DNA of 64,000 nt from Clostridia bacterium (GTDB lineage Bacteria; Bacillota; Clostridia; Oscillospirales; CAG-272): assembly GCA_017481595.1 (NCBI GenBank), contig JAFUOY010000014.1, positions 1 to 64,000 on the forward strand. Direction: 5' to 3'. Shown in pieces: positions 46,492-57,009 of the stretch. A model generated the notes under the pieces. The model was given only the letters and a program-made list of their open reading frames with translations, made no database searches and was not told where the DNA came from. A program made the translations under genes and the position numbers. Every line of letters begins with the position of its first letter. The first letter of the stretch is position 1.

Positions 46492-49400
46492 TTACTTAAA
46501 ATACTTCACAGCAGACTTAAACATCTTAATGTCATAATCGCCGTATACGTTTTTATAAAGACCGTTGGCAATACGCTCAGAGTGACCCATCTTACCGATT
46601 ACACGTCCGTCGGGAGAAAGGATACCCTCTATTGCAAGGCTTGAACCGTTGGGGTTAAAGTCTATATCGTATGTAGCTTCGCCGTTAAGATCAACGTACT
46701 GTGTCGCAATTTGACCGTTCTTGATAAGCTCTGCTATAGTAGCGTCATTAGCTAAGAATTTACCCTCACCGTGAGAAATTGCAACATTATATATATCGCC
46801 AACATTACACTCGGAAAGCCAAGGAGAATTGTTGGATGCCACACGAGTTCTTACGATCTTGGACTGGTGTCTTGCAATATTGTTAAATGTAAGCGTAGGA
46901 CAATTTTCGTCTGTATCTATAATCTTACCGTAGGGTACAAGACCAAGCTTTACAAGCGCCTGGAATCCGTTACAAATACCGCACATAAGACCGTCACGAT
47001 TTTCAAGAAGGTCTGTAACTGCTTCCTTAACGTCTGCGCCTCTAAAGAAAGCTGTAATGAACTTACCGCTTCCGTCGGGCTCGTCGCCGCCGGAGAAACC
47101 ACCGGGAACAAAGATCATCTGGGACTCCTTAACAAGGCCTACAAACTCCTCAGAGCTTCTCTTGATATCGTCTGCGCTCAAGTTGTTTATAACGAATATT
47201 TTAGCCTCTGCCCCCGCATTTTCAACTGCTTTAGCAGAATCATATTCACAGTTTGTACCAGGGAATACAGGAATAAGAACCTTGGGCTTTGCTACTTTAA
47301 TAGCAGGCGCAAGCTTTTTATCTGTTTCATAAGAAACGGTTTCAGGCTTCTCTGTGCTTGACTTGATATTGCAGGGATATACGCTTTCAAGCTTATCCTC
47401 GTAAAGCTTAGTCAATTCACACATACATACCTTAACGCCATTATATGAAATAGCCTTATCGTCTGTTACTGTACCAAGAGCAGTACCAATTTCAATATTT
47501 TCTGCAAGCTCGAGAATGAATGAACCATAATTATAACCGAATATATCATCAAGTGTAATATTGGAGTTGTACTCAAATCCAAAGCCATTACCTATTGCCA
47601 TCTTATAAACAGCCTCTGCTACACCACCGATTGTAGGCGTATATGCGCTAAGGATCTTACCGCTTCTCATAAGACAAGTAACCTTGTTATAAAGAGCAAG
47701 AAGAGATTCCGTCTTGGGAAGCATATTTTCATCATATTCAGGCTTAACGATCACAACCTTTGAGCCAGCCTTTTTAAATTCGGGAGAAACAACCTCGCTT
47801 GTTTTACCGTTTGTAACCGCGAAGGAAATGAGTGTGGGAGGAACGTCAAGCTTCTCAAAAGATCCGCTCATAGAGTCCTTACCGCCAATAGCGCCTATAC
47901 CGAGATCCTTCTGCGCTTTAAACGCGCCAAGGAGGGCGGACAAGGGCTTGCCCCATCTCTTAGGATCCTTCAAGGGCTTTTCAAAATATTCCTGGAACGT
48001 AAGATATACGTCCTCAAACTTAGCACCCGTTGCAATAAGCTTGGAAACTGATTCAATTACCGCAAGATAAGCACCGTGGAAGGGGCTCTTTTCGGAAACG
48101 AAGGGGTTATATCCCCACGCCATATAAGAACAATCATCTGTATGACCCTTTTCACAGGAAATAAGGTGTACCATAGACTGAATAGGCGTTCTCTGATACT
48201 TACCACCAAATGGCATAAGTACTGTTCCTGCACCAATCGTACTGTCAAAGCGTTCACTCAAGCCTCTCTTAGAGCAAGTATTTATATCATCACAAATGGA
48301 CTTGATTCCACTTTCAAAATCAGCAGGAATTGTCTTGTTGTAATCTTCTATTTTTGCAGGAGCTATATCAATATGCTTTTCTGCGCCGTTGGAGTTAAGG
48401 AACTCTCTGCTTATATCTACAATAGCCTTTCCATTATGGAACATACGGAGTCTTGGCTCTGCCTTAACAGTTGCAACAACAGTCGCCTCAAGGTTTTCAC
48501 TGTGAGCAAGCGCTAAGAATGCATCAATATTTTCCTTTTCGATTACAACAGCCATTCTTTCCTGAGATTCGCTGATTGCAAGCTCAGTACCGTCAAGACC
48601 GTCATACTTTTTAGGAACTGCATTAAGGTTGATTTCAAGTCCGTCAGCAAGCTCGCCTATAGCAACGGATACACCGCCTGCTCCAAAGTCATTACAACGC
48701 TTTATCATACGGCAAGCGTCATAATTTCTGAAGAGACGCTGAAGCTTTCTTTCTTCAGGAGCATTACCCTTCTGAACCTCTGCGCCGCACTGCTCAAGAG
48801 AATCAACCGTATGGGATTTGGATGAGCCTGTTGCTCCGCCGCATCCGTCACGACCTGTACGGCCGCCAAGCAAGATTACAACGTCGCCGTCTTCGGGTCT
48901 TTCTCTACGTACGTTTCTTTCGGGAGCAGCAGCGATTACTGCGCCTACCTCAAGATGCTTTGCCGCATATCCGTCGTGATAAATTTCATCAACTATACCA
49001 GTAGCAAGACCAATCTGGTTACCGTAGGAGGAATAACCTGCAGCAGCAGTTGTTACGATCTTTCTCTGAGGAAGCTTACCCTCAATAGTTTCATCAAGAG
49101 ATCTCAAAGGATCAGCAGCTCCTGTAAGACGCATAGCGCCGTAAACGTAGGATCTGCCCGACAAGGGGTCACGGATAGCACCGCCGATACAAGTAGCCGC
49201 GCCACCAAAGGGCTCAATTTCAGTAGGATGGTTATGCGTTTCATTTTTGAAGAGCAAGAGCCAGGGCTCAGCCTTACCGTCAACCTCTACTGTGATCTTA
49301 ACAGTACATGCATTGATTTCTTCACTCTCATCAAGCTTGTCAAGCTTACCCTCTTTCTTAAGATACTTAACCGCTAAGGTTGCAATATCCATAAGGTTTA

Positions 49401-50181
49401 CAGGCTTTGTTCTGTTAAGTATCTTTCTTGTATTGATATAATCGTCATACGTATCCTGAAGAAGCTTATCTTCAAATTTAACGTTATCAATAGTTGTCAA
49501 GAACGTTGTATGACGACAATGGTCTGACCAATATGTGTCTATCATACGAATTTCTGTTACCGTGGGATTTCTACCCTCTGTTTTAAAGTAATCCTGGCAG
49601 AATTTAATATCGTCATTATCCATAGCAAGAGCGTAGGATTTAACAAAATCAGCAAGACCGTCCTTATCAAGATCAATAAATCCGTCGATAGTTTTTACAT
49701 CCTCGGGAACGTCGTATTCAGCCTTTATGGTATCCTTTTCCTCAAGAGAAGCTTCACGCGCTTCTACAGGGTTAATAACGTGCTTCTTTATAGCCTTTAC
49801 TTCACCCTCTGTAAGATCTCCGTAAAGCATATATACTCTTGCGCTCTGTACGGAGGGCTTATCTCCCTTTGAAATAAGCTGAATACATTGAGCCGCAGAG
49901 TCTGCTCTTTGATCAAACTGACCGGGCAAATACTCTGTCGCGAATACTACCGCTCCGTCGTTTTCAAGTGAAAAATAAACATTGTCAAGCTGAGGCTCTG
50001 AAAATACTGTTTTTACAGAGTAATCAAAAAGTTCCTTCGTGATATTTTCCACATCATAGCGGTTCATGATTCTTACTTTTTCTATATTCTTTATTCCAAG
50101 AAATGTCTTGATTTCGGAAAATAATGCATTAGCCTCATTTTCAAGACCCTTTTTCTTTTCTACATAAACGCGGTAAACCAT
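46492..50181 (-). CDS. purL: Phosphoribosylformylglycinamidine synthase, single-chain PurL
   Basis: Converts FGAR, glutamine and ATP to FGAM. At 1229 residues it is the large type with synthetase and glutaminase on one chain. The ammonia-accepting half has the ENTHNHP-like motif here as NETHNHPTEIEPFGG (about residue 330) and GRTGRDGCGGATGSS. The C-terminal glutaminase has PGTNCEYDSA, the catalytic Cys in CGICNGFQ, and His-Glu in the MGHSER end. The glutaminase triad is intact here, unlike in PurF. The start is the ATG after GGAGG; 22 upstream in-frame codons lie inside purD. It is the last gene of the purine operon. Confidence 0.96.
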   Translation of the reverse strand: MVYRVYVEKKKGLENEANALFSEIKTFLGIKNIEKVRIMNRYDVENITKELFDYSVKTVFSEPQLDNVYFSLENDGAVVFATEYLPGQFDQRADSAAQCIQLISKGDKPSVQSARVYMLYGDLTEGEVKAIKKHVINPVEAREASLEEKDTIKAEYDVPEDVKTIDGFIDLDKDGLADFVKSYALAMDNDDIKFCQDYFKTEGRNPTVTEIRMIDTYWSDHCRHTTFLTTIDNVKFEDKLLQDTYDDYINTRKILNRTKPVNLMDIATLAVKYLKKEGKLDKLDESEEINACTVKITVEVDGKAEPWLLLFKNETHNHPTEIEPFGGAATCIGGAIRDPLSGRSYVYGAMRLTGAADPLRSLDETIEGKLPQRKIVTTAAAGYSSYGNQIGLATGIVDEIYHDGYAAKHLEVGAVIAAAPERNVRRERPEDGDVVILLGGRTGRDGCGGATGSSKSHTVDSLEQCGAEVQKGNAPEERKLQRLFRNYDACRMIKRCNDFGAGGVSVAIGELADGLEINLNAVPKKYDGLDGTELAISESQERMAVVIEKENIDAFLALAHSENLEATVVATVKAEPRLRMFHNGKAIVDISREFLNSNGAEKHIDIAPAKIEDYNKTIPADFESGIKSICDDINTCSKRGLSERFDSTIGAGTVLMPFGGKYQRTPIQSMVHLISCEKGHTDDCSYMAWGYNPFVSEKSPFHGAYLAVIESVSKLIATGAKFEDVYLTFQEYFEKPLKDPKRWGKPLSALLGAFKAQKDLGIGAIGGKDSMSGSFEKLDVPPTLISFAVTNGKTSEVVSPEFKKAGSKVVIVKPEYDENMLPKTESLLALYNKVTCLMRSGKILSAYTPTIGGVAEAVYKMAIGNGFGFEYNSNITLDDIFGYNYGSFILELAENIEIGTALGTVTDDKAISYNGVKVCMCELTKLYEDKLESVYPCNIKSSTEKPETVSYETDKKLAPAIKVAKPKVLIPVFPGTNCEYDSAKAVENAGAEAKIFVINNLSADDIKRSSEEFVGLVKESQMIFVPGGFSGGDEPDGSGKFITAFFRGADVKEAVTDLLENRDGLMCGICNGFQALVKLGLVPYGKIIDTDENCPTLTFNNIARHQSKIVRTRVASNNSPWLSECNVGDIYNVAISHGEGKFLANDATIAELIKNGQIATQYVDLNGEATYDIDFNPNGSSLAIEGILSPDGRVIGKMGHSERIANGLYKNVYGDYDIKMFKSAVKYFK

Positions 50182-50182
50182 T

Positions 50183-51454
50183 TTATTTAACCTCCGTTGC
50201 TTTAAGCGCTTTTTGTCCAATGTCACTTCTGTAAAAAGCGTTATCAAATTTAATCATAGAAACCTTTTTATATGCACCGTCTATTGCTGATTTCAAATCA
50301 TTTGCAACATCGGTTACACCGAGTACTCTTCCGCCTGCGCTAAGGAGCTTTTTATCAGAAAGCTTTGCTCCCGCTACGTATACGGAATCAGATATTTCCT
50401 CGGGAATAACTATTTCAAATCCGTTTTCATATTTTTCGGGATAACCCTTGGATGCCATAATTACACAGCAAGCGCTCTTGTCTGCAAACTTAACGTCACA
50501 CTTATCAAGTGTTCCGTTGGTTACACTCTGCATAACCTCAAAAAGATCACTTTCAAGCAAGGGCAAAACTACCTGAGTTTCAGGGTCACCGAATCTGCAG
50601 TTATATTCAATAACCTTGGGACCGTTCTTTGTAAGCATAAGACCGAAGTACAAGCATCCCTTGAATAGCCTATCTTCCTTTTTCATAGCCTCAATAGTAG
50701 GCAAGAAAATAGTTTTCATACATTCATCGGCAATATCCTTTGTGTAGTAAGGATTAGGAGCTACCGTTCCCATGCCTCCCGTATTAAGACCCTTGTCAAA
50801 ATCAAGCGCTCTCTTATGGTCCATAGAAGATACCATAGGCTTTACAACGTTTCCGTCTGTAAATGCAAGCACGGAAACCTCAGGACCCTCAAGATATTCT
50901 TCAATAACTATATTGTTTCCGCTATCACCGAACTTTTTGTCCTCCATTATGCTCTTTACAGCATCAATGGCCTCTTCCTTTGTAAATGCTATTACAACGC
51001 CCTTTCCAAGCGCAAGACCGTCTGCCTTAATTACTGTGGGAATGGGAGCTGATTCAAGATACTTAAGAGCATCCTCTGCTTTTGTGAATACCTGGTATTC
51101 AGCAGTTGGAATACCATATTTTTTCATAAGGTTTTTAGAGAATACCTTACTGCCCTCAATAATCGCAGCCGCCTTTGATGGACCAAAGCAAGGAATACCT
51201 ATTTCATTAAGAGCATCAACACAACCAAGTACGAGAGGATCATCGGGAGCTACCACCGCGTAATCAATGGAATTTTCCTTTGCAAAGCTTACGATACCCT
51301 CAATATCCTTTGCACCGATGTTTACACAAGTAGCATCATGCGCTATTCCACCGTTACCGGGAAGCGCAAAAATTTTTTCTATGGATTTGTTTTCTTTAAG
51401 CTTTTTTATAATGGCGTGTTCTCTGCCACCGCCACCAACAACTATTACTCTCAT
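50183..51454 (-). CDS. purD: Phosphoribosylamine-glycine ligase
   Basis: ATP-grasp enzyme joining glycine to phosphoribosylamine, the step after PurF. N-terminal VVGGGGREHAI and the ATP-grasp motifs (KADGLALGKGVV near residue 145, NTGGMG near 225 and EYNCRFGDPETQ near 285) are present. The 423-residue length is standard. AAGGAG precedes the ATG. It starts 13 bases after the AICAR formyltransferase gene and ends one base before purL. Confidence 0.97.
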   Translation of the reverse strand: MRVIVVGGGGREHAIIKKLKENKSIEKIFALPGNGGIAHDATCVNIGAKDIEGIVSFAKENSIDYAVVAPDDPLVLGCVDALNEIGIPCFGPSKAAAIIEGSKVFSKNLMKKYGIPTAEYQVFTKAEDALKYLESAPIPTVIKADGLALGKGVVIAFTKEEAIDAVKSIMEDKKFGDSGNNIVIEEYLEGPEVSVLAFTDGNVVKPMVSSMDHKRALDFDKGLNTGGMGTVAPNPYYTKDIADECMKTIFLPTIEAMKKEDRLFKGCLYFGLMLTKNGPKVIEYNCRFGDPETQVVLPLLESDLFEVMQSVTNGTLDKCDVKFADKSACCVIMASKGYPEKYENGFEIVIPEEISDSVYVAGAKLSDKKLLSAGGRVLGVTDVANDLKSAIDGAYKKVSMIKFDNAFYRSDIGQKALKATEVK

Positions 51455-51467
51455 CGCATGCTCCTTA

Positions 51468-52655
51468 TTAATGGTGGAATAATCTCATTTTTGTAAACGC
51501 CATTACCATACCGTACTTATTACAGCAATTTATAACAACGTCATCTCTGATAGATCCACCGGGCTCTGCGATATATGTAACGCCGCTTCTTCTTGCTCTT
51601 TCAATATTATCACTGAAGGGGAAGAAAGCATCGGAGCCAACGCTTACGCCTGTAATAGTGTCAAGATATTCTCTCATTTCCTCAGCTGTGAAGGGCTCAG
51701 GCTGCTTTGAGAAATATTTCTGCCAATTTCCGTCAGCGCATACATCTTCCTCATTCTTATTGATATATCCGTCAATAACATTATCTCTGTCGGGACGGGA
51801 AACTGTAGGTAAGAAAGGAAGGTTAAGCACCTTTTCGTGCTGTCTTAAATGCCATGTATCAGCCTTTGTACCTGCAAGACGTGTACAATGGATTCTTGAC
51901 TGCTGACCTGCTCCAACACCGATAGCCTGTCCGTTATATGCATAGCATACGGAGTTTGACTGTGTGTATTTAAGAGTTATAAGAGCGATTATAAGGTCTG
52001 TAACCGCATTATCGGGAAGCTCCTTGTTTTCAGTTACGATATCAGTAAAGAGCTCCTTGTCAATTTTAAAGTTATTTCTTCCCTGCTCAAAGGTTATGCC
52101 GTAAACCTGCTTACGTTCAATAGGGTCGGGAACGAAGTCAGGATCGATCTTTACGATATTGTAATTACCCTTCTTCTTTGTCTTAAGAATTTCAAGAGCC
52201 TCATCTGTGTATCCGGGAGCGATAACACCGTCGGAAATTTCTCTCTTTATGAGCAATGCAGTAGTGACATCGCATACGTCAGAAAGAGCGATCCAGTCAC
52301 CAAAGGAGCTCATTCTGTCCGTTCCTCTTGCTCTTGCATATGCACAAGCCAAGGGAGAATCATCAAGGCCTTCAATATCATCTACAAAGCAAGCCTTTTT
52401 GAGCTTTTCGGGGAGCTTGATTCCAACTGCTGCAGATGTGGGGCTTACGTGCTTAAAGGATGTAGCGCAAGGAAGTCCTGTTGCTTCCTTCAATTCCTTA
52501 ACGAGCTGCCATGAGTTGAAAGCATCAAGGAAGTTAATATATCCGGGTCTGCCACAAAGTATTTCTATAGGCAACTCTGCGCCATTTTCCATAAAAATTT
52601 TGGAAGGCTTCTGATTGGGGTTGCAGCCGTATTTAAGTTCAAATTCTTTCATCAT
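51468..52655 (-). CDS. purH: AICAR formyltransferase (stand-alone PurH C-terminal domain)
   Basis: Transfers a formyl group to AICAR to make FAICAR, the ninth step of purine synthesis. The 395-residue protein matches only the AICARFTase half of bifunctional PurH. It starts MMKEFELKYGCNPNQKP, with FKHVSP, SFGDWIALSD, the GVGAGQQSRI and SVGSDAFFPF motifs, and the active-site Lys-His of TSFKHVS. The N-terminal MGS-like IMP cyclohydrolase domain is absent. Cyclohydrolase activity is supplied by the gene directly upstream. It has AAGGG before either of two adjacent ATG starts. The symbol purH is used for the domain homology. Confidence 0.92.
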   Translation of the reverse strand: MMKEFELKYGCNPNQKPSKIFMENGAELPIEILCGRPGYINFLDAFNSWQLVKELKEATGLPCATSFKHVSPTSAAVGIKLPEKLKKACFVDDIEGLDDSPLACAYARARGTDRMSSFGDWIALSDVCDVTTALLIKREISDGVIAPGYTDEALEILKTKKKGNYNIVKIDPDFVPDPIERKQVYGITFEQGRNNFKIDKELFTDIVTENKELPDNAVTDLIIALITLKYTQSNSVCYAYNGQAIGVGAGQQSRIHCTRLAGTKADTWHLRQHEKVLNLPFLPTVSRPDRDNVIDGYINKNEEDVCADGNWQKYFSKQPEPFTAEEMREYLDTITGVSVGSDAFFPFSDNIERARRSGVTYIAEPGGSIRDDVVINCCNKYGMVMAFTKMRLFHH

Positions 52656-52673
52656 TATGTACCGACCCTTTCA

Positions 52674-53390
52674 TCATTTATTTTTGTTTACGATTCTTGT
52701 TTCAGCTTCGCCTGTTGCAATATCTATATATCTTACAAAAAGTGAAACCTTGTTATCTTCATTGAGGTTAGTCCAGATAAGTTCTGTCAATTCATCAATG
52801 CCAACGTCGGGAAGGATAAGTGTTTTAGGCTCACCCTCAAAGGAAGGAAGGGGATTTCCGTCTCCGTTATAAGTATGAATAAACTTTGCCATTCCCGCCT
52901 TGGGATTTGAATAAGCATATGTAAATCTTTCGCAAGAGGAGTCATCTCCCTCAGCACTCTTAAGAATAGACATTGCAAAATTCATTCCATCCTCTTCACG
53001 ACGAATAATACCTGAAATACGGGGTGTAAAATTAGGCTTATCATCCTCAAACTCTCTTGTACGAAGAGCCTGCTCAAACGTCATCTGCTTATCCATAAGC
53101 TTATAAATCGTGTCTGTCTGATCACCATTAGTTACGATAGTCTTGTTGCCGAGAACTCTTACGGGATAATAAATAATAAGATGGGGATCTATCATTTTGG
53201 ATTCGTCAAATGCCTTTGTACGCATAGCATCGCCTTCGGCAACGAATACTCTGTTACGGCTGTTTTCACTTCTTCCCATAATAAAGTAAGCGGCTACTGC
53301 CTTCTTGGAGTCTGCGCTTTTACCAATAATAATTCCTCTGCCATGATAAGCAAGAGAATTAAGCTCATTTACAATAGTTGAAACCTTCAT
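52674..53390 (-). CDS. purO: Archaeal-type IMP cyclohydrolase (PurO-like)
   Basis: Closes the ring of FAICAR to make IMP. The 238-residue sequence matches the IMP_cyclohyd (PurO) family known mainly from archaea: GRGIIIGKS near residue 18, AYFIMGRSENSRNR near 34, and the C-terminal PLPSFEGEPKTLILP block. It is not homologous to the MGS-fold domain of PurH. Its position just before the stand-alone AICAR formyltransferase explains the missing half of PurH. The SD sequence GAGGAGAT is strong. Lateral transfer from archaea to Clostridia is plausible but old. Confidence 0.88.
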   Translation of the reverse strand: MKVSTIVNELNSLAYHGRGIIIGKSADSKKAVAAYFIMGRSENSRNRVFVAEGDAMRTKAFDESKMIDPHLIIYYPVRVLGNKTIVTNGDQTDTIYKLMDKQMTFEQALRTREFEDDKPNFTPRISGIIRREEDGMNFAMSILKSAEGDDSSCERFTYAYSNPKAGMAKFIHTYNGDGNPLPSFEGEPKTLILPDVGIDELTELIWTNLNEDNKVSLFVRYIDIATGEAETRIVNKNK

Positions 53391-53401
53391 TCTTTATCTC
53401 C

Positions 53402-54028
53402 TCATTTTTCTACATAAACCTTGTTATCCCTGACAGTAAGCTTATCATCACAGAAAAGTCTTACGGCCTCGGGCAATATTTTCCATTCTGCCTCTTCCAT
53501 AATTCTCTTTTGAAGAGCTTCGGGAGTGTCATCCTCCATAACGCAAACTGCCTTTTGAAGGATAATAGGACCGGCATCACATTCGGGAGTAACAATGTGA
53601 ACTGTTGCGCCGGAAACCTTAACTCCCTTTTCAAGCGCAGCCTCGTGAACGTGAAGTCCATAATACCCCTTGCCGCAGAAGGAGGGGATCAATGCGGGAT
53701 GAACATTTATTATTTTGTTTGTAAAAGCCTCATATACCTGTTCATCAAATATAGTTAAAAACCCTGCTAAAACTACAAGATCTATTTTTTCTTCCAAAAG
53801 AGCGTCTGTAAGCGCCCTTGAATAAGATTTAATGCTGTCATAATCCTTACGGGGAAGAACAACAGATTTTATGCTGTTATTCTCCGCTCTTTCAAGAGCA
53901 TAAATACCGGGCTTTGATGCAACAACAAGAGAAATTTTGCCGTTTCCAAGCATTCCGTTCTTCTCTGCATCAATTAAAGCCTGTAAATTTGTTCCTCCGC
54001 CGGATACAAGAACTGCTATTCTTTTCAT
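53402..54028 (-). CDS. purN: Phosphoribosylglycinamide formyltransferase (10-formyl-THF dependent)
   Basis: Formylates GAR with 10-formyl-THF. N-terminal VLVSGGGTNLQALID, the FLTIFDEQ block near residue 95 and INVHPALIPSF, with GATVHIVTPECDAGPII, contain the catalytic Asn/His/Asp. The 208-residue length is typical. Its start overlaps the purM stop by one base (TAATG). Confidence 0.95.
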   Translation of the reverse strand: MKRIAVLVSGGGTNLQALIDAEKNGMLGNGKISLVVASKPGIYALERAENNSIKSVVLPRKDYDSIKSYSRALTDALLEEKIDLVVLAGFLTIFDEQVYEAFTNKIINVHPALIPSFCGKGYYGLHVHEAALEKGVKVSGATVHIVTPECDAGPIILQKAVCVMEDDTPEALQKRIMEEAEWKILPEAVRLFCDDKLTVRDNKVYVEK

Positions 54029-55074
54029 TAGCAGAACACCACGCCTTCGTCACCCTTGATGATCTCGCCGATTACGTAAGCATCATCACCGTGAGCCTTA
54101 AGTATCTCGATTGCTGTGTCAACCTCATCCGCAGGAACTACTATGCTCATACCTACACCCATATTGTACGTGTTATACATATCTCTTTCAGGAACATTTC
54201 CTGTCTTTGCAATAAGATCAAAAATAGGAAGAACCTTAACTGCGGATTTTGTAATCTTAGCAGAAAGTCCCTTAGGAATAGATCTCGGAATATTTTCGTA
54301 AAATCCACCGCCTGTAATATGACTGATACCCTTTACGTTAACCTTTTCGATAAGCGCAAGAACAGACTTAACGTAAATTCTTGTAGGTGTAAGAAGTGTT
54401 TCCGCAATGGAAGCTCCGCCAAGATCAGCGCAAGGCTCATAAAGAGATGCGGGGTTATTATCTATATCAAATACCTTACGAACAAGTGAAAAACCATTCG
54501 AGTGAACGCCGCTTGAAGGAAGCGCAATAACAACGTCACCCTCAACCATTTTGGTGTTATCAAGAATTTTCTTTTTGTCTACTATACCAACAGCAAATCC
54601 TGCAAGATCGTAATCATCAACGGGCATAAGGCCTGGGTGCTCAGCTGTTTCTCCACCGATAAGAGCCGCTCCGGACTGTACGCATCCCTCGGCAACACCG
54701 CCGACAATAGAAGCTATCTTTTCGGGAATATTCTTACCACAAGCAATATAGTCAAGGAAGAACAAGGGCTTTGCGCCTACGCAAATGATATCGTTAACAC
54801 ACATAGCAACTGCGTCAATACCAATAGTATCATGCTTGTCCATCAAAATTGCCATCTTAACCTTTGTACCGCAACCGTCAGTACCTGAAACAAGTACAGG
54901 CTCTTCCATTCCTGCAACAGGGAGTCCGAAGCATCCGCCAAATCCACCTACGTCATCAAGGCAACCCTCATTCTTTGTACGTGCGATATGGGATTTCATA
55001 AGTTCAACTGCTTTGTAACCTGCTGTAATATCAACGCCAGCAGCTGCGTAGCTCTCAGATCTTGAATTTTTCAC
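54028..55074 (-). CDS. purM: Phosphoribosylformylglycinamidine cyclo-ligase (AIR synthetase)
   Basis: Converts FGAM to AIR with ATP. Motifs are AAAGVDITAGYKAVELMK (shown in part) near residue 11, VGGFGGCFGL near 42, LVSGTDGCGTK near 60, GGETAEHPGLM near 140 and HITGGGFYENIPRS near 255. The start is GTG, with only a weak upstream GTGAG as SD sequence, and lies just after purF, so coupling is likely. The 348-residue length is standard. Confidence 0.96.
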   Translation of the reverse strand: MKNSRSESYAAAGVDITAGYKAVELMKSHIARTKNEGCLDDVGGFGGCFGLPVAGMEEPVLVSGTDGCGTKVKMAILMDKHDTIGIDAVAMCVNDIICVGAKPLFFLDYIACGKNIPEKIASIVGGVAEGCVQSGAALIGGETAEHPGLMPVDDYDLAGFAVGIVDKKKILDNTKMVEGDVVIALPSSGVHSNGFSLVRKVFDIDNNPASLYEPCADLGGASIAETLLTPTRIYVKSVLALIEKVNVKGISHITGGGFYENIPRSIPKGLSAKITKSAVKVLPIFDLIAKTGNVPERDMYNTYNMGVGMSIVVPADEVDTAIEILKAHGDDAYVIGEIIKGDEGVVFC

Positions 55075-55076
55075 TT

Positions 55077-56489
55077 TTATGTCTCACTTTCTGATAATTT
55101 TATATCGTATTTATTTCTTTGTGTTGTTGATGGAGGATTTGTTGGGTATTTACCATCAAAGCATGCCTTACAATATCCTTTACAGGTTCCGCCCTCTCCG
55201 AGCTTTTCTACGTCCTCGATGTTTAAGAATCCTAAAGAATCAACACCGAATATCTTTTCCATTTCCTCGGTTGTATGATTACAAGCAATAAGAACATCCT
55301 TTGAATCAATATCCGTACCGTAGTAGCATGGATTAAGGAATTTTGGCGCAGATGAACGAAGATGTATTTCCTTTGCGCCTGCATCACGCAAAAGCTTAAC
55401 GATTCTTGCGCAGGTTGTTCCTCTTACAATTGAGTCATCTACAAGAACTATTCTCTTTCCCTTTACCGTATTAGCAACGGGATTAAGCTTAATTCTAACC
55501 TTATCTTCTCTTACGTTTTGCCCCGGAGCAATAAACGTTCTGCCTATATATTTATTTTTAATAAGTCCTATTCCGTAAGGTATACCGGACTCCTCTGAAT
55601 ATCCAATCGCCGCTTCAAGTCCGGAATCGGGCACGCCTATTACAACGTCTGCTTCGGCAGGACAGGTTTTAGCAAGGAAAGCCCCCGCTCTTTTTCTTGC
55701 AGCCTGTACAGCGCAATTGCTGATAATTGAGTCGGGGCGCGCCGTATAGAGATATTCAAACACACATAATCTTTCGGGCTGCTTATTGCAATGATCCCTT
55801 ATCGTTTTGATTCCGTCCTTTGAAAATACAATTATCTCACCGGGCATTACGTCTCTTATGTACGTTGCTCCAACTGCATCAAGAGCGCAGCTTTCACTTG
55901 CGATAACATATTCATTTTCTCCGCGCATACCGTAGCACAAAGGATGCATACCCATTTCATCTCTTGCAGCTATAAGCTTCTGAGATGACATAATTATCAT
56001 TGAATACGCTCCCTTAAGGTGATCCATAGCCTTGTTGAGTGCTTCCTCAATAGAACCGGATGTTAAACGTTCTCTTGTTATTACGTATGAAATTACCTCT
56101 GCATCACATGAGCTATGAAATATAGCTCCGTTAAGCTCAAGCTCCTTACGAAGTTCAGGATAATTAACCAAAGAGCTTTGCGTTGCTACTGCAAGCTTAC
56201 CCTTTATGTGATTTACCACAAAGGGCTCAGTATTTACTTTATCCTTGGTTTGTAATGTTCCGTAGCGAACGTGACCTAACGCCATCCTTCCCTTTCCAAG
56301 ATGATTCATTGCGTTATGTGTAAAAACATCGTTAACAAGACCTGTGTCCTTATGTACACGGAAAAGTCCGTCGTCATTCACAACAATACCGCAGCTTTCC
56401 TGACCTCTGTGCTGAAGTGCATATAAACCATAATATGTACTGGAGGCAACATCAGCCGTTTTGTTTCCCATGATACCAAAAACTGACAT
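55077..56489 (-). CDS. purF: Amidophosphoribosyltransferase PurF with degenerate glutaminase site
   Basis: Normally makes phosphoribosylamine from PRPP and glutamine-derived ammonia. The phosphoribosyltransferase half is intact: PRPP loop RIVLVDDSIVRGTT (346-359), VPDSG near 286 and CVFEYLYTARPDS (242-254). The Fe-S-type cysteines Cys242, Cys388, Cys440 and Cys443 match the Bacillus-type enzyme. The glutaminase half is not: the mature N-terminal Cys is Ser2, and the oxyanion HNGN motif reads TQSS (103-106), although Arg75 and Asp129 remain. The ATG has AGGAG and an in-frame stop (TAA) two codons upstream, so no hidden start restores Cys. It is expected to need free ammonia or a partner glutaminase. 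Confidence 0.9.
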   Translation of the reverse strand: MSVFGIMGNKTADVASSTYYGLYALQHRGQESCGIVVNDDGLFRVHKDTGLVNDVFTHNAMNHLGKGRMALGHVRYGTLQTKDKVNTEPFVVNHIKGKLAVATQSSLVNYPELRKELELNGAIFHSSCDAEVISYVITRERLTSGSIEEALNKAMDHLKGAYSMIIMSSQKLIAARDEMGMHPLCYGMRGENEYVIASESCALDAVGATYIRDVMPGEIIVFSKDGIKTIRDHCNKQPERLCVFEYLYTARPDSIISNCAVQAARKRAGAFLAKTCPAEADVVIGVPDSGLEAAIGYSEESGIPYGIGLIKNKYIGRTFIAPGQNVREDKVRIKLNPVANTVKGKRIVLVDDSIVRGTTCARIVKLLRDAGAKEIHLRSSAPKFLNPCYYGTDIDSKDVLIACNHTTEEMEKIFGVDSLGFLNIEDVEKLGEGGTCKGYCKACFDGKYPTNPPSTTQRNKYDIKLSESET

Positions 56490-56514
56490 ATTTTATTTCT
56501 CCTGTAAAATGGAT

Positions 56515-57009
56515 TTACTTGTTAAATCTTTCTTCAATTTCTTTGTTTTTCAAGAGAACCTTTTCAGTTCCTTTTTTTCTTGCATCTATAAGCTTACTAT
56601 ACAAATCAGCATCAGAAAGCGCAAGCATTTGAATAGAAAGCAATGCTGCATTTGCCGCGCCGTCTATAGCAACTGTCGCAACAGGAATACCGGATGGCAT
56701 CTGTACGGTAGCAAGAAGCGCATCCATTCCGCCTGTGTTCTTGCATGAAACGGGAATTCCTATTACCGGAAGAACTGTGTTTGCAGCGATAGCGCCCGCA
56801 AGATGCGCAGCCATACCTGCAGCAGCTATAATAACGCCAAATCCATTATCCTTTGCAGACTTTACAAACTCTGCAGTTTCATAAGGCGTTCTATGTGCGG
56901 AATAAACGTGAACCTCAAAAGGAACACCGTATTCCTTAAGAACGTTAATACCCTTTTCGACAATGGGCAAATCACTGTCGCTACCCATAATGATTGCAAC
57001 TTTTTTCAT
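56515..57009 (-). CDS. purE: N5-carboxyaminoimidazole ribonucleotide mutase / AIR carboxylase PurE
   Basis: Converts N5-CAIR (or AIR plus CO2) to CAIR. The 164-residue protein has the GSDSDLP loop (9-15), SAHRTP (residues 37-42) and AGMAAHLAG near 64. No purK is visible next to it. The family includes class I enzymes that need PurK and class II enzymes that use CO2 directly. The AGMAAHLAG variant, with no purK in the window, leaves the class open. It is the first gene of the operon, directly after the ZTP riboswitch and terminator. Confidence 0.95.

Follow-up and report, generated by a model that had tools for sequence, protein, structure and literature searches.

The window (the whole stretch of 64,000 nucleotides analysed here, from the Clostridia bacterium assembly GCA_017481595.1, contig JAFUOY010000014.1) carries a minus-strand purine operon in the order purE-purF-purM-purN-purO-AICARFT-purD-purL. 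The open reading frame at 55077-56489 encodes a 470-aa PurF, which matched TIGR01134 over its full length with 469.4 bits (curated cut-off, 350) and in which the PRTase domain PF00156 was also matched. In the same operon, IMP formation (51468-53390) is split between a stand-alone AICAR formyltransferase and a PF07826 IMP cyclohydrolase, in place of the bifunctional PurH. The features of the locus are as follows:

46492..50247, minus strand: purL, with a class-I glutaminase domain (residues 987-1250) and catalytic motifs (domain match, motifs)
50183..51454, minus strand: purD (profile match)
51468..52655, minus strand: stand-alone AICAR formyltransferase (profile match)
52674..53390, minus strand: IMP cyclohydrolase of the PF07826 (PurO-like) type (profile match)
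53402..54028, minus strand: purN (profile match)
54028..55074, minus strand: purM (profile match)
55077..56489, minus strand: purF, 470 aa, without Cys1 and without propeptide (alignment, M1 opposite Cys1)
55413..55448, minus strand: PRPP loop VLVDDSIVRGTT, intact (alignment)
55743..55745, minus strand: codon 249, Thr (E. coli F259, which adjoins Tyr258; alignment)
56172..56183, minus strand: codons 103-106, TQSS at the HNGN position (alignment)
56226..56228, minus strand: codon 88, Glu (E. coli Q86; alignment)
56487..56489, minus strand: ATG start codon, Met in place of the catalytic Cys1 (alignment)
56493..56495, minus strand: in-frame TAA, which excludes an upstream propeptide with Cys (sequence)
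56499..56503, minus strand: AGGAG, likely ribosome-binding site of the purF ATG (sequence)
56515..57009, minus strand: purE (profile match)

Loss of the glutaminase residues in the window PurF

In the alignment with the PurF proteins of B. subtilis (1ao0, 1gph) and E. coli K-12, the initiator Met lies opposite Cys1 and Ser2 opposite Gly2, and HNGN is replaced by TQSS, so that Gln and Ser stand in the positions of the oxyanion-hole Asn and Gly. Two hallmarks of class II (Ntn) glutaminases, the N-terminal catalytic Cys (Met in all 16 full-length Cys-less rows) and the oxyanion-hole pair, are thus missing from the window protein, and the third, the glutamine-binding pair Arg73/Asp127, is present (Arg75/Asp129; 16/16 rows). 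We take Arg73 and Asp127 of E. coli to be the glutamine ligands, Tyr258 to be a channel residue, and Cys242, Cys388, Cys440, and Cys443, all present in the window PurF, to be the Fe-S ligands. The annotated start is supported by the TAA two codons 5' of the ATG together with the AGGAG box farther upstream; a purine-rich box of the GGAG or GAGG type was also recognized by eye 5' of the ATG in all 16 full-length Cys-less genes.

A preliminary description of this locus had reported Ser in place of the catalytic Cys. The loss of the nucleophile stands, but the substitution had been read off by one residue, and Ser2 is no conserved replacement, as residue 2 across the 16 full-length Cys-less rows, that of the window among them, is Gly in ten, Ser in five, and Ala in one. 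The same description was right in placing TQSS (103-106) at the HNGN position, in listing the PRPP loop, Arg75, Asp129, and the Fe-S Cys as retained, in excluding a propeptide Cys by the upstream stop, and in stating that PurL keeps its triad (CGICNGF and ISHGEGKF). HNGN occurs in none of the 17 Cys-less genomes, with TSGK standing there in G298 and with G020 and G022 differing from HNGN in the His only. Taken together, the alignments provide good support for a loss of glutaminase activity in this PurF.

Distribution, origin, and selection of the Cys-less PurF

The genus set comprised 23 genomes (G000 to G022, with G000 being the window genome). In 16 of them PurF starts with MGVF, MGIF, MSVF, or MSFF (a fragment, L032, in G009), one (G015) keeps the Cys (EECGVFGI, with HNGN), and no PurF was found in the remaining six, which are 53-76% complete. 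G298, belonging to another genus of the family, is also Cys-less (MAVFGI, with TSGK), bringing the genomes with Met at Cys1 to 17, i.e., 16 full-length rows plus the G009 fragment. All 57 other PurF N-termini read in the order, G015 included, have the Cys; these reads (12 + 25 + 20) contain a few second copies or interrupted frames and leave out L033 and L031, the latter because its N-terminus is missing. Likewise, the Cys was present in 80/80 loci of named relatives (79 by script and L098 by eye) and HNGN in 76/80, these loci being found by pattern with near relatives omitted and hence no random sample. Among the matches listed, the alignment starts at residue 1 only for G000, G016, G003, and G298. 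A sequencing error or a wrong start, both raised as caveats in the preliminary description, is ruled out by the recurrence of the loss in 17 genomes, the upstream stops, and the ribosome-binding sites. Apart from these, L033 (G033) is a PurF-like paralogue with a 469-aa frame, the N-terminus GGIFGV, no Cys, and about 30% identity to the window PurF, and similar matches of 475-480 aa were detected in G037 and G035.

In a tree of 53 PurF rows, computed with residue 1 excluded, the 16 full-length Cys-less rows formed one clade (support 100/100), nested among propeptide-bearing Cys-type proteins and with G015 as the nearest row, albeit at weak support (89/66). The PurF tree shows a single origin of the Cys1 loss. 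Among 197 columns conserved at 90% or more in the 37 Cys-type rows, 22 were kept in fewer than 80% of the Cys-less rows; the glutaminase half accounts for 14 of these 22, which include position 1 and Asn104. His103 and Asn106 vary in Cys-type rows too (conserved in 30/37 and 28/37, respectively), and the HNGN His, absent from 7/37 of these rows, is a weaker sign of loss. Arg28, Arg75, Tyr76, Thr78, and Asp129 are unaltered in all 16 Cys-less rows, and two substitutions are fixed there: Q88E (Glu in 16/16 vs Gln in 36/37 Cys-type rows) and F249T (Thr in 16/16 vs Phe in 35/37). The dN/dS values of five pairs were 0.029-0.044 for the whole PurF and 0.021-0.058 for the glutaminase half, both rough as synonymous sites are near saturation; three Cys-type pairs, in which rows differing in length had been compared without alignment, were left out of account. 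By these ratios, PurF is evidently under purifying selection, and its glutaminase domain is not decaying but appears to have lost one chemical step, in line with the preliminary statement that the operon is not simply in decay.

Other glutaminases and nitrogen genes of the Cys-less genomes

Class-I glutaminases (PF00117) were searched for in all 17 Cys-less genomes. No CarA-, GuaA-, or PyrG-sized match was found in 16 of these, and G004 has three, solely on contig C30. A match of 206-221 aa in 16/17 genomes corresponds to HisH where read (G000, G011, G016, and G298) and was assigned to it by length elsewhere. In G019 the sole PF00117 match is PdxT, and a dedicated search found no HisH in this genome. 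The additional matches were a gamma-glutamyl-GABA-hydrolase-like protein in G011 and G298 and a TrpG-like one in G006; the names of these proteins and of PdxT were given by eye, except in G011.

GuaA was examined in 14 Cys-less genomes and was represented by 12 frames of 334-380 aa and one 50-aa piece at a contig edge, with none in one genome; G004 has an additional 525-aa copy on C30. In G000, G011, and G016, GuaA starts in the synthetase domain, TIGR00884 being matched from the model start, and no separate GATase subunit for GMP synthetase was recognized among the PF00117 matches, several HisH-sized ones of which were named by length only. CarB was detected in 13/14 Cys-less genomes searched, and in G000, G011, and G016 pyrC is followed by carB without a carA. 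The PyrG synthetase domain (PF06418) was found in none of 13 Cys-less genomes (G000, G002, G003, G006, G007, G010-G013, G016, G019, G020, and G022; G004 set aside), as against all 14 control genomes, G015, and G031. AmtB was absent from all 15 Cys-less genomes searched, compared with its presence in 10/13 glutaminase-replete relatives (Fisher p 2e-5, kinship ignored). In G015, pyrG, a small regulator-like gene, glnA, glutamine synthetase III, and amtB are adjacent (L258, C78), so that a single event may account for some of the loss.

Weaker-class GMP_synt_C matches (E about 1e-34 to 1e-38, like those of the short GuaA) occur in many members of the order, according to a survey of 295 genomes in which frame lengths among the matches listed reach down to E ~1e-39. 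G042, G139, G153, G257, G277, and G298 combine such a match with no GuaA-sized PF00117 match, and stand-alone GuaA may be more widespread in the order. G291 has a similar score yet a 513-aa PF00117 match, which indicates that the GMP_synt_C score alone is not diagnostic.

A general loss of glutaminases is ruled out by the intact motifs of PurL (read in G000 and G298), HisH (in the four genomes named above), AsnB-like proteins (MCSICG and YNGEIYN in 9/9 Cys-less genomes looked at), and GlmS (Cys present in the four Cys-less genomes read). Moreover, glutamine synthetase was matched in 13/14 Cys-less genomes, which, together with the intact PurL, HisH, and AsnB glutaminases, indicates that glutamine is both made and used. 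The GlnA frames are 479-492 aa long, with matches near 1e-112, in G000, G002, G003, G007, G010, G011, G012, G013, and G016, and 444-476 aa long (1e-79 to 1e-84) in G015 and G031; G019 and G020 have only a 700-aa GlnA type, and no GlnA match was found in G022. It may be that the Cys-less genomes no longer have their original glnA and that another has taken its place. A GlmS-like match was present in G000, G002, G006, G011, G014, G019, G020, and G022 (four read, the others by match span) and not found in G003, G010, G012, G013, G016, G004, and G007 (the last two in a single search). NagB operating in reverse is an ammonia route to glucosamine-6-phosphate, and it could replace GlmS where the GlmS-like match is missing.

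Free ammonia as the probable substrate

The predicted activity of the window PurF is likely to be that of an ammonia-dependent PRPP aminotransferase, in a lineage in which free ammonia has taken the place of glutamine in much of nucleotide synthesis. The enzyme would form phosphoribosylamine from PRPP and free NH3, as its Ntn glutaminase site would be unable to start catalysis owing to the missing Cys1 and, in the window, the missing oxyanion Asn and Gly. The lineage presumably lives at steadily high ammonia, from the gut or from its own amino-acid breakdown, under which glutamine channelling and the ammonium transporter would be dispensable. Given that the PRPP loop is intact, that no partner glutaminase was seen in the families searched, and that neighbouring pathways have been deprived of theirs, free NH3 as the nitrogen source is the simplest explanation. 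In E. coli PurF, exchange of Cys1 for Ala or Ser abolishes glutamine use and ammonia use remains (PMC3261824, consulted in part), and the synthetase unit of GuaA uses external ammonia in vitro (PMC10526850, in part).

Among the alternatives, a separate glutaminase might dock on PurF and supply its ammonia, in the way that CarA serves CarB. In other families the glutaminase and the synthetase are commonly found as split pairs (PMC3376133, in part), and the glutaminase domain of PurF is conserved. However, the partner search covered both the PF00117 and PF13522 families; the former yielded the HisH, PdxT, TrpG-like, and gamma-glutamyl-GABA-hydrolase-like proteins described above, the latter only PurF, AsnB-like, and (in four) GlmS-like proteins across nine Cys-less genomes, and the pur operon stretches of G000, G011, G016, G019, and G298 contain no extra ORF of at least 110 aa, making such a partner improbable. 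Still less probable is a second, Cys-type PurF in unassembled parts of the genome. The window genome is 62% complete and G004 does carry a second PurF with Cys, but none was found in eight Cys-less genomes of 93-97% completeness (G002, G003, G010, G011, G012, G016, G019, and G298, the last among the matches listed). The Cys-type PurF of G004 branches with that of G189 from another genus, and guaA, pyrG, purF, and carA follow the same order on C30 and in G189; C30 therefore looks like contamination or an acquired island and was treated as foreign. Of the three ways out offered in the preliminary description, the evidence favours free ammonia; only this suspect contig carried a second PurF, and the PF00117 and PF13522 matches contained no candidate partner glutaminase.

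Glutaminase activity through another nucleophile, such as a Ser2 exposed after Met removal, would suit the five of 16 rows that have Ser2, the window among them, but is scarcely credible given that the remaining 11 rows have Gly (10) or Ala (1), that Ser2 lies one residue late, and that HNGN is altered; moreover, the Cys1-to-Ser enzyme of E. coli had no detectable glutamine activity (PMC3261824, in part). Ser as the nucleophile is thus ruled out by the alignment. Hardly more tenable is a decaying purF with purines being salvaged, to which the lost catalytic residues and the six genus members showing no PurF might point, in view of the low dN/dS, the open frame in all 16 full-length genes, and a window pur operon complete in the genes named.

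Several observations complicate the ammonia-dependent reading. In addition to the invariant Arg75 and Asp129, the oxyanion Asn is kept in 10/16 and the Gly (Gly105) in 14/16 Cys-less rows, indicating that the glutamine pocket is not freely drifting; Arg75 and Asp129 may persist because closure of the enzyme over PRPP requires them or because bound glutamine acts as a signal. In G267, the one PF00117 match is HisH-sized, yet PurF keeps Cys1 (its frame holds one TGA); in G015, which has the Cys, CarA and CarB were both not found (170 contigs). Other glutaminases can therefore go before, or without, PurF Cys1, and the species are not independent. G042, G257, G277, and G267 of the family all have only a HisH-sized PF00117 match and no AmtB; among the matches listed, no PurF was found at E 1e-60 in the first three. 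G083, G099, and G311 have glutaminases and no AmtB, and the absence of AmtB could alternatively mean that little external ammonium is taken up.

A wider proposal can be put forward only tentatively, namely that in this clade PurF, GMP synthetase, and carbamoyl-phosphate synthetase all switched to free ammonia, with the dead PurF glutaminase domain retained for a new job and CTP acquired by some route other than the known CTP synthase. The domain might serve as an ammonium entry and channel, consistent with the fixed Glu88 and Thr249, the latter beside Tyr258, or as a glutamine sensor, consistent with the retained Arg75 and Asp129.

Significance and comparison with known systems

Glutamine channelling is usually regarded as essential to these enzymes, since cells typically keep their free ammonia low (PMC3376133, in part). 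The clade, presumably without such channelling in PurF, GuaA, and CarAB, would offer natural ammonia-only enzymes for comparison with their glutamine-using sisters and would test what role the conserved glutaminase domain has besides hydrolysis; ammonia-dependent growth is predicted. Furthermore, profile models label both the short GuaA and the solitary CarB as glutamine-hydrolysing, and the missing Cys goes unmarked by the PurF model, so metabolic models built automatically would come out wrong for this clade. Within a literature in which most subscription journals were outside reach, nothing was found on this clade, nor on bacteria in which CarA, the GuaA glutaminase, and PurF Cys1 had been lost together.

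The window PurF resembles the TIGR01134 PurF proteins (B. subtilis 1ao0/1gph, E. coli 1ecb) in its full-length match, PRPP loop, and operon role, but differs in lacking the propeptide and Cys1, in its altered HNGN, and in the Glu and Thr at Q86 and F259 shared by 16/16 rows. CPS I, which keeps a dead glutaminase domain, is a further parallel. It likewise makes carbamoyl phosphate from ammonia only, but is mitochondrial and needs N-acetylglutamate (PMC6022934, in part), whereas in the bacterial Cys-less clade the carA gene was not found; bacterial CPS consists of glutaminase plus synthase according to the same source. Single-domain NadE provides another likeness, as the proteins of this family that lack a glutaminase draw on free ammonia in vivo; that form is common (44% in the table) and thought to be ancestral (PMC3376133, in part), whereas the form of the PurF clade arose by loss. 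In the accessible part of the same survey table, glutaminase-less forms are listed neither for GuaA (730 genomes) nor for CarAB (600).

The closest likeness is to PurF' of Crenarchaeota, a PurF homologue that also lacks the N-terminal Cys and is also encoded near purine genes, for which Brown et al. (2011) proposed an ammonia-dependent PRPP aminotransferase (PMC3261824, in part). According to the accessible part of that source, however, each crenarchaeon has a Cys-type PurF alongside PurF', whereas the bacterial Cys-less PurF is the only PurF found in its genomes, G004 C30 apart, and is thus no Cys-less paralogue beside a Cys-type enzyme. By the yardsticks of PurF' as a second copy, of a survey without glutaminase-less GuaA or CarAB, and of bacterial CPS as glutaminase plus synthase, the clade departs from the known cases.
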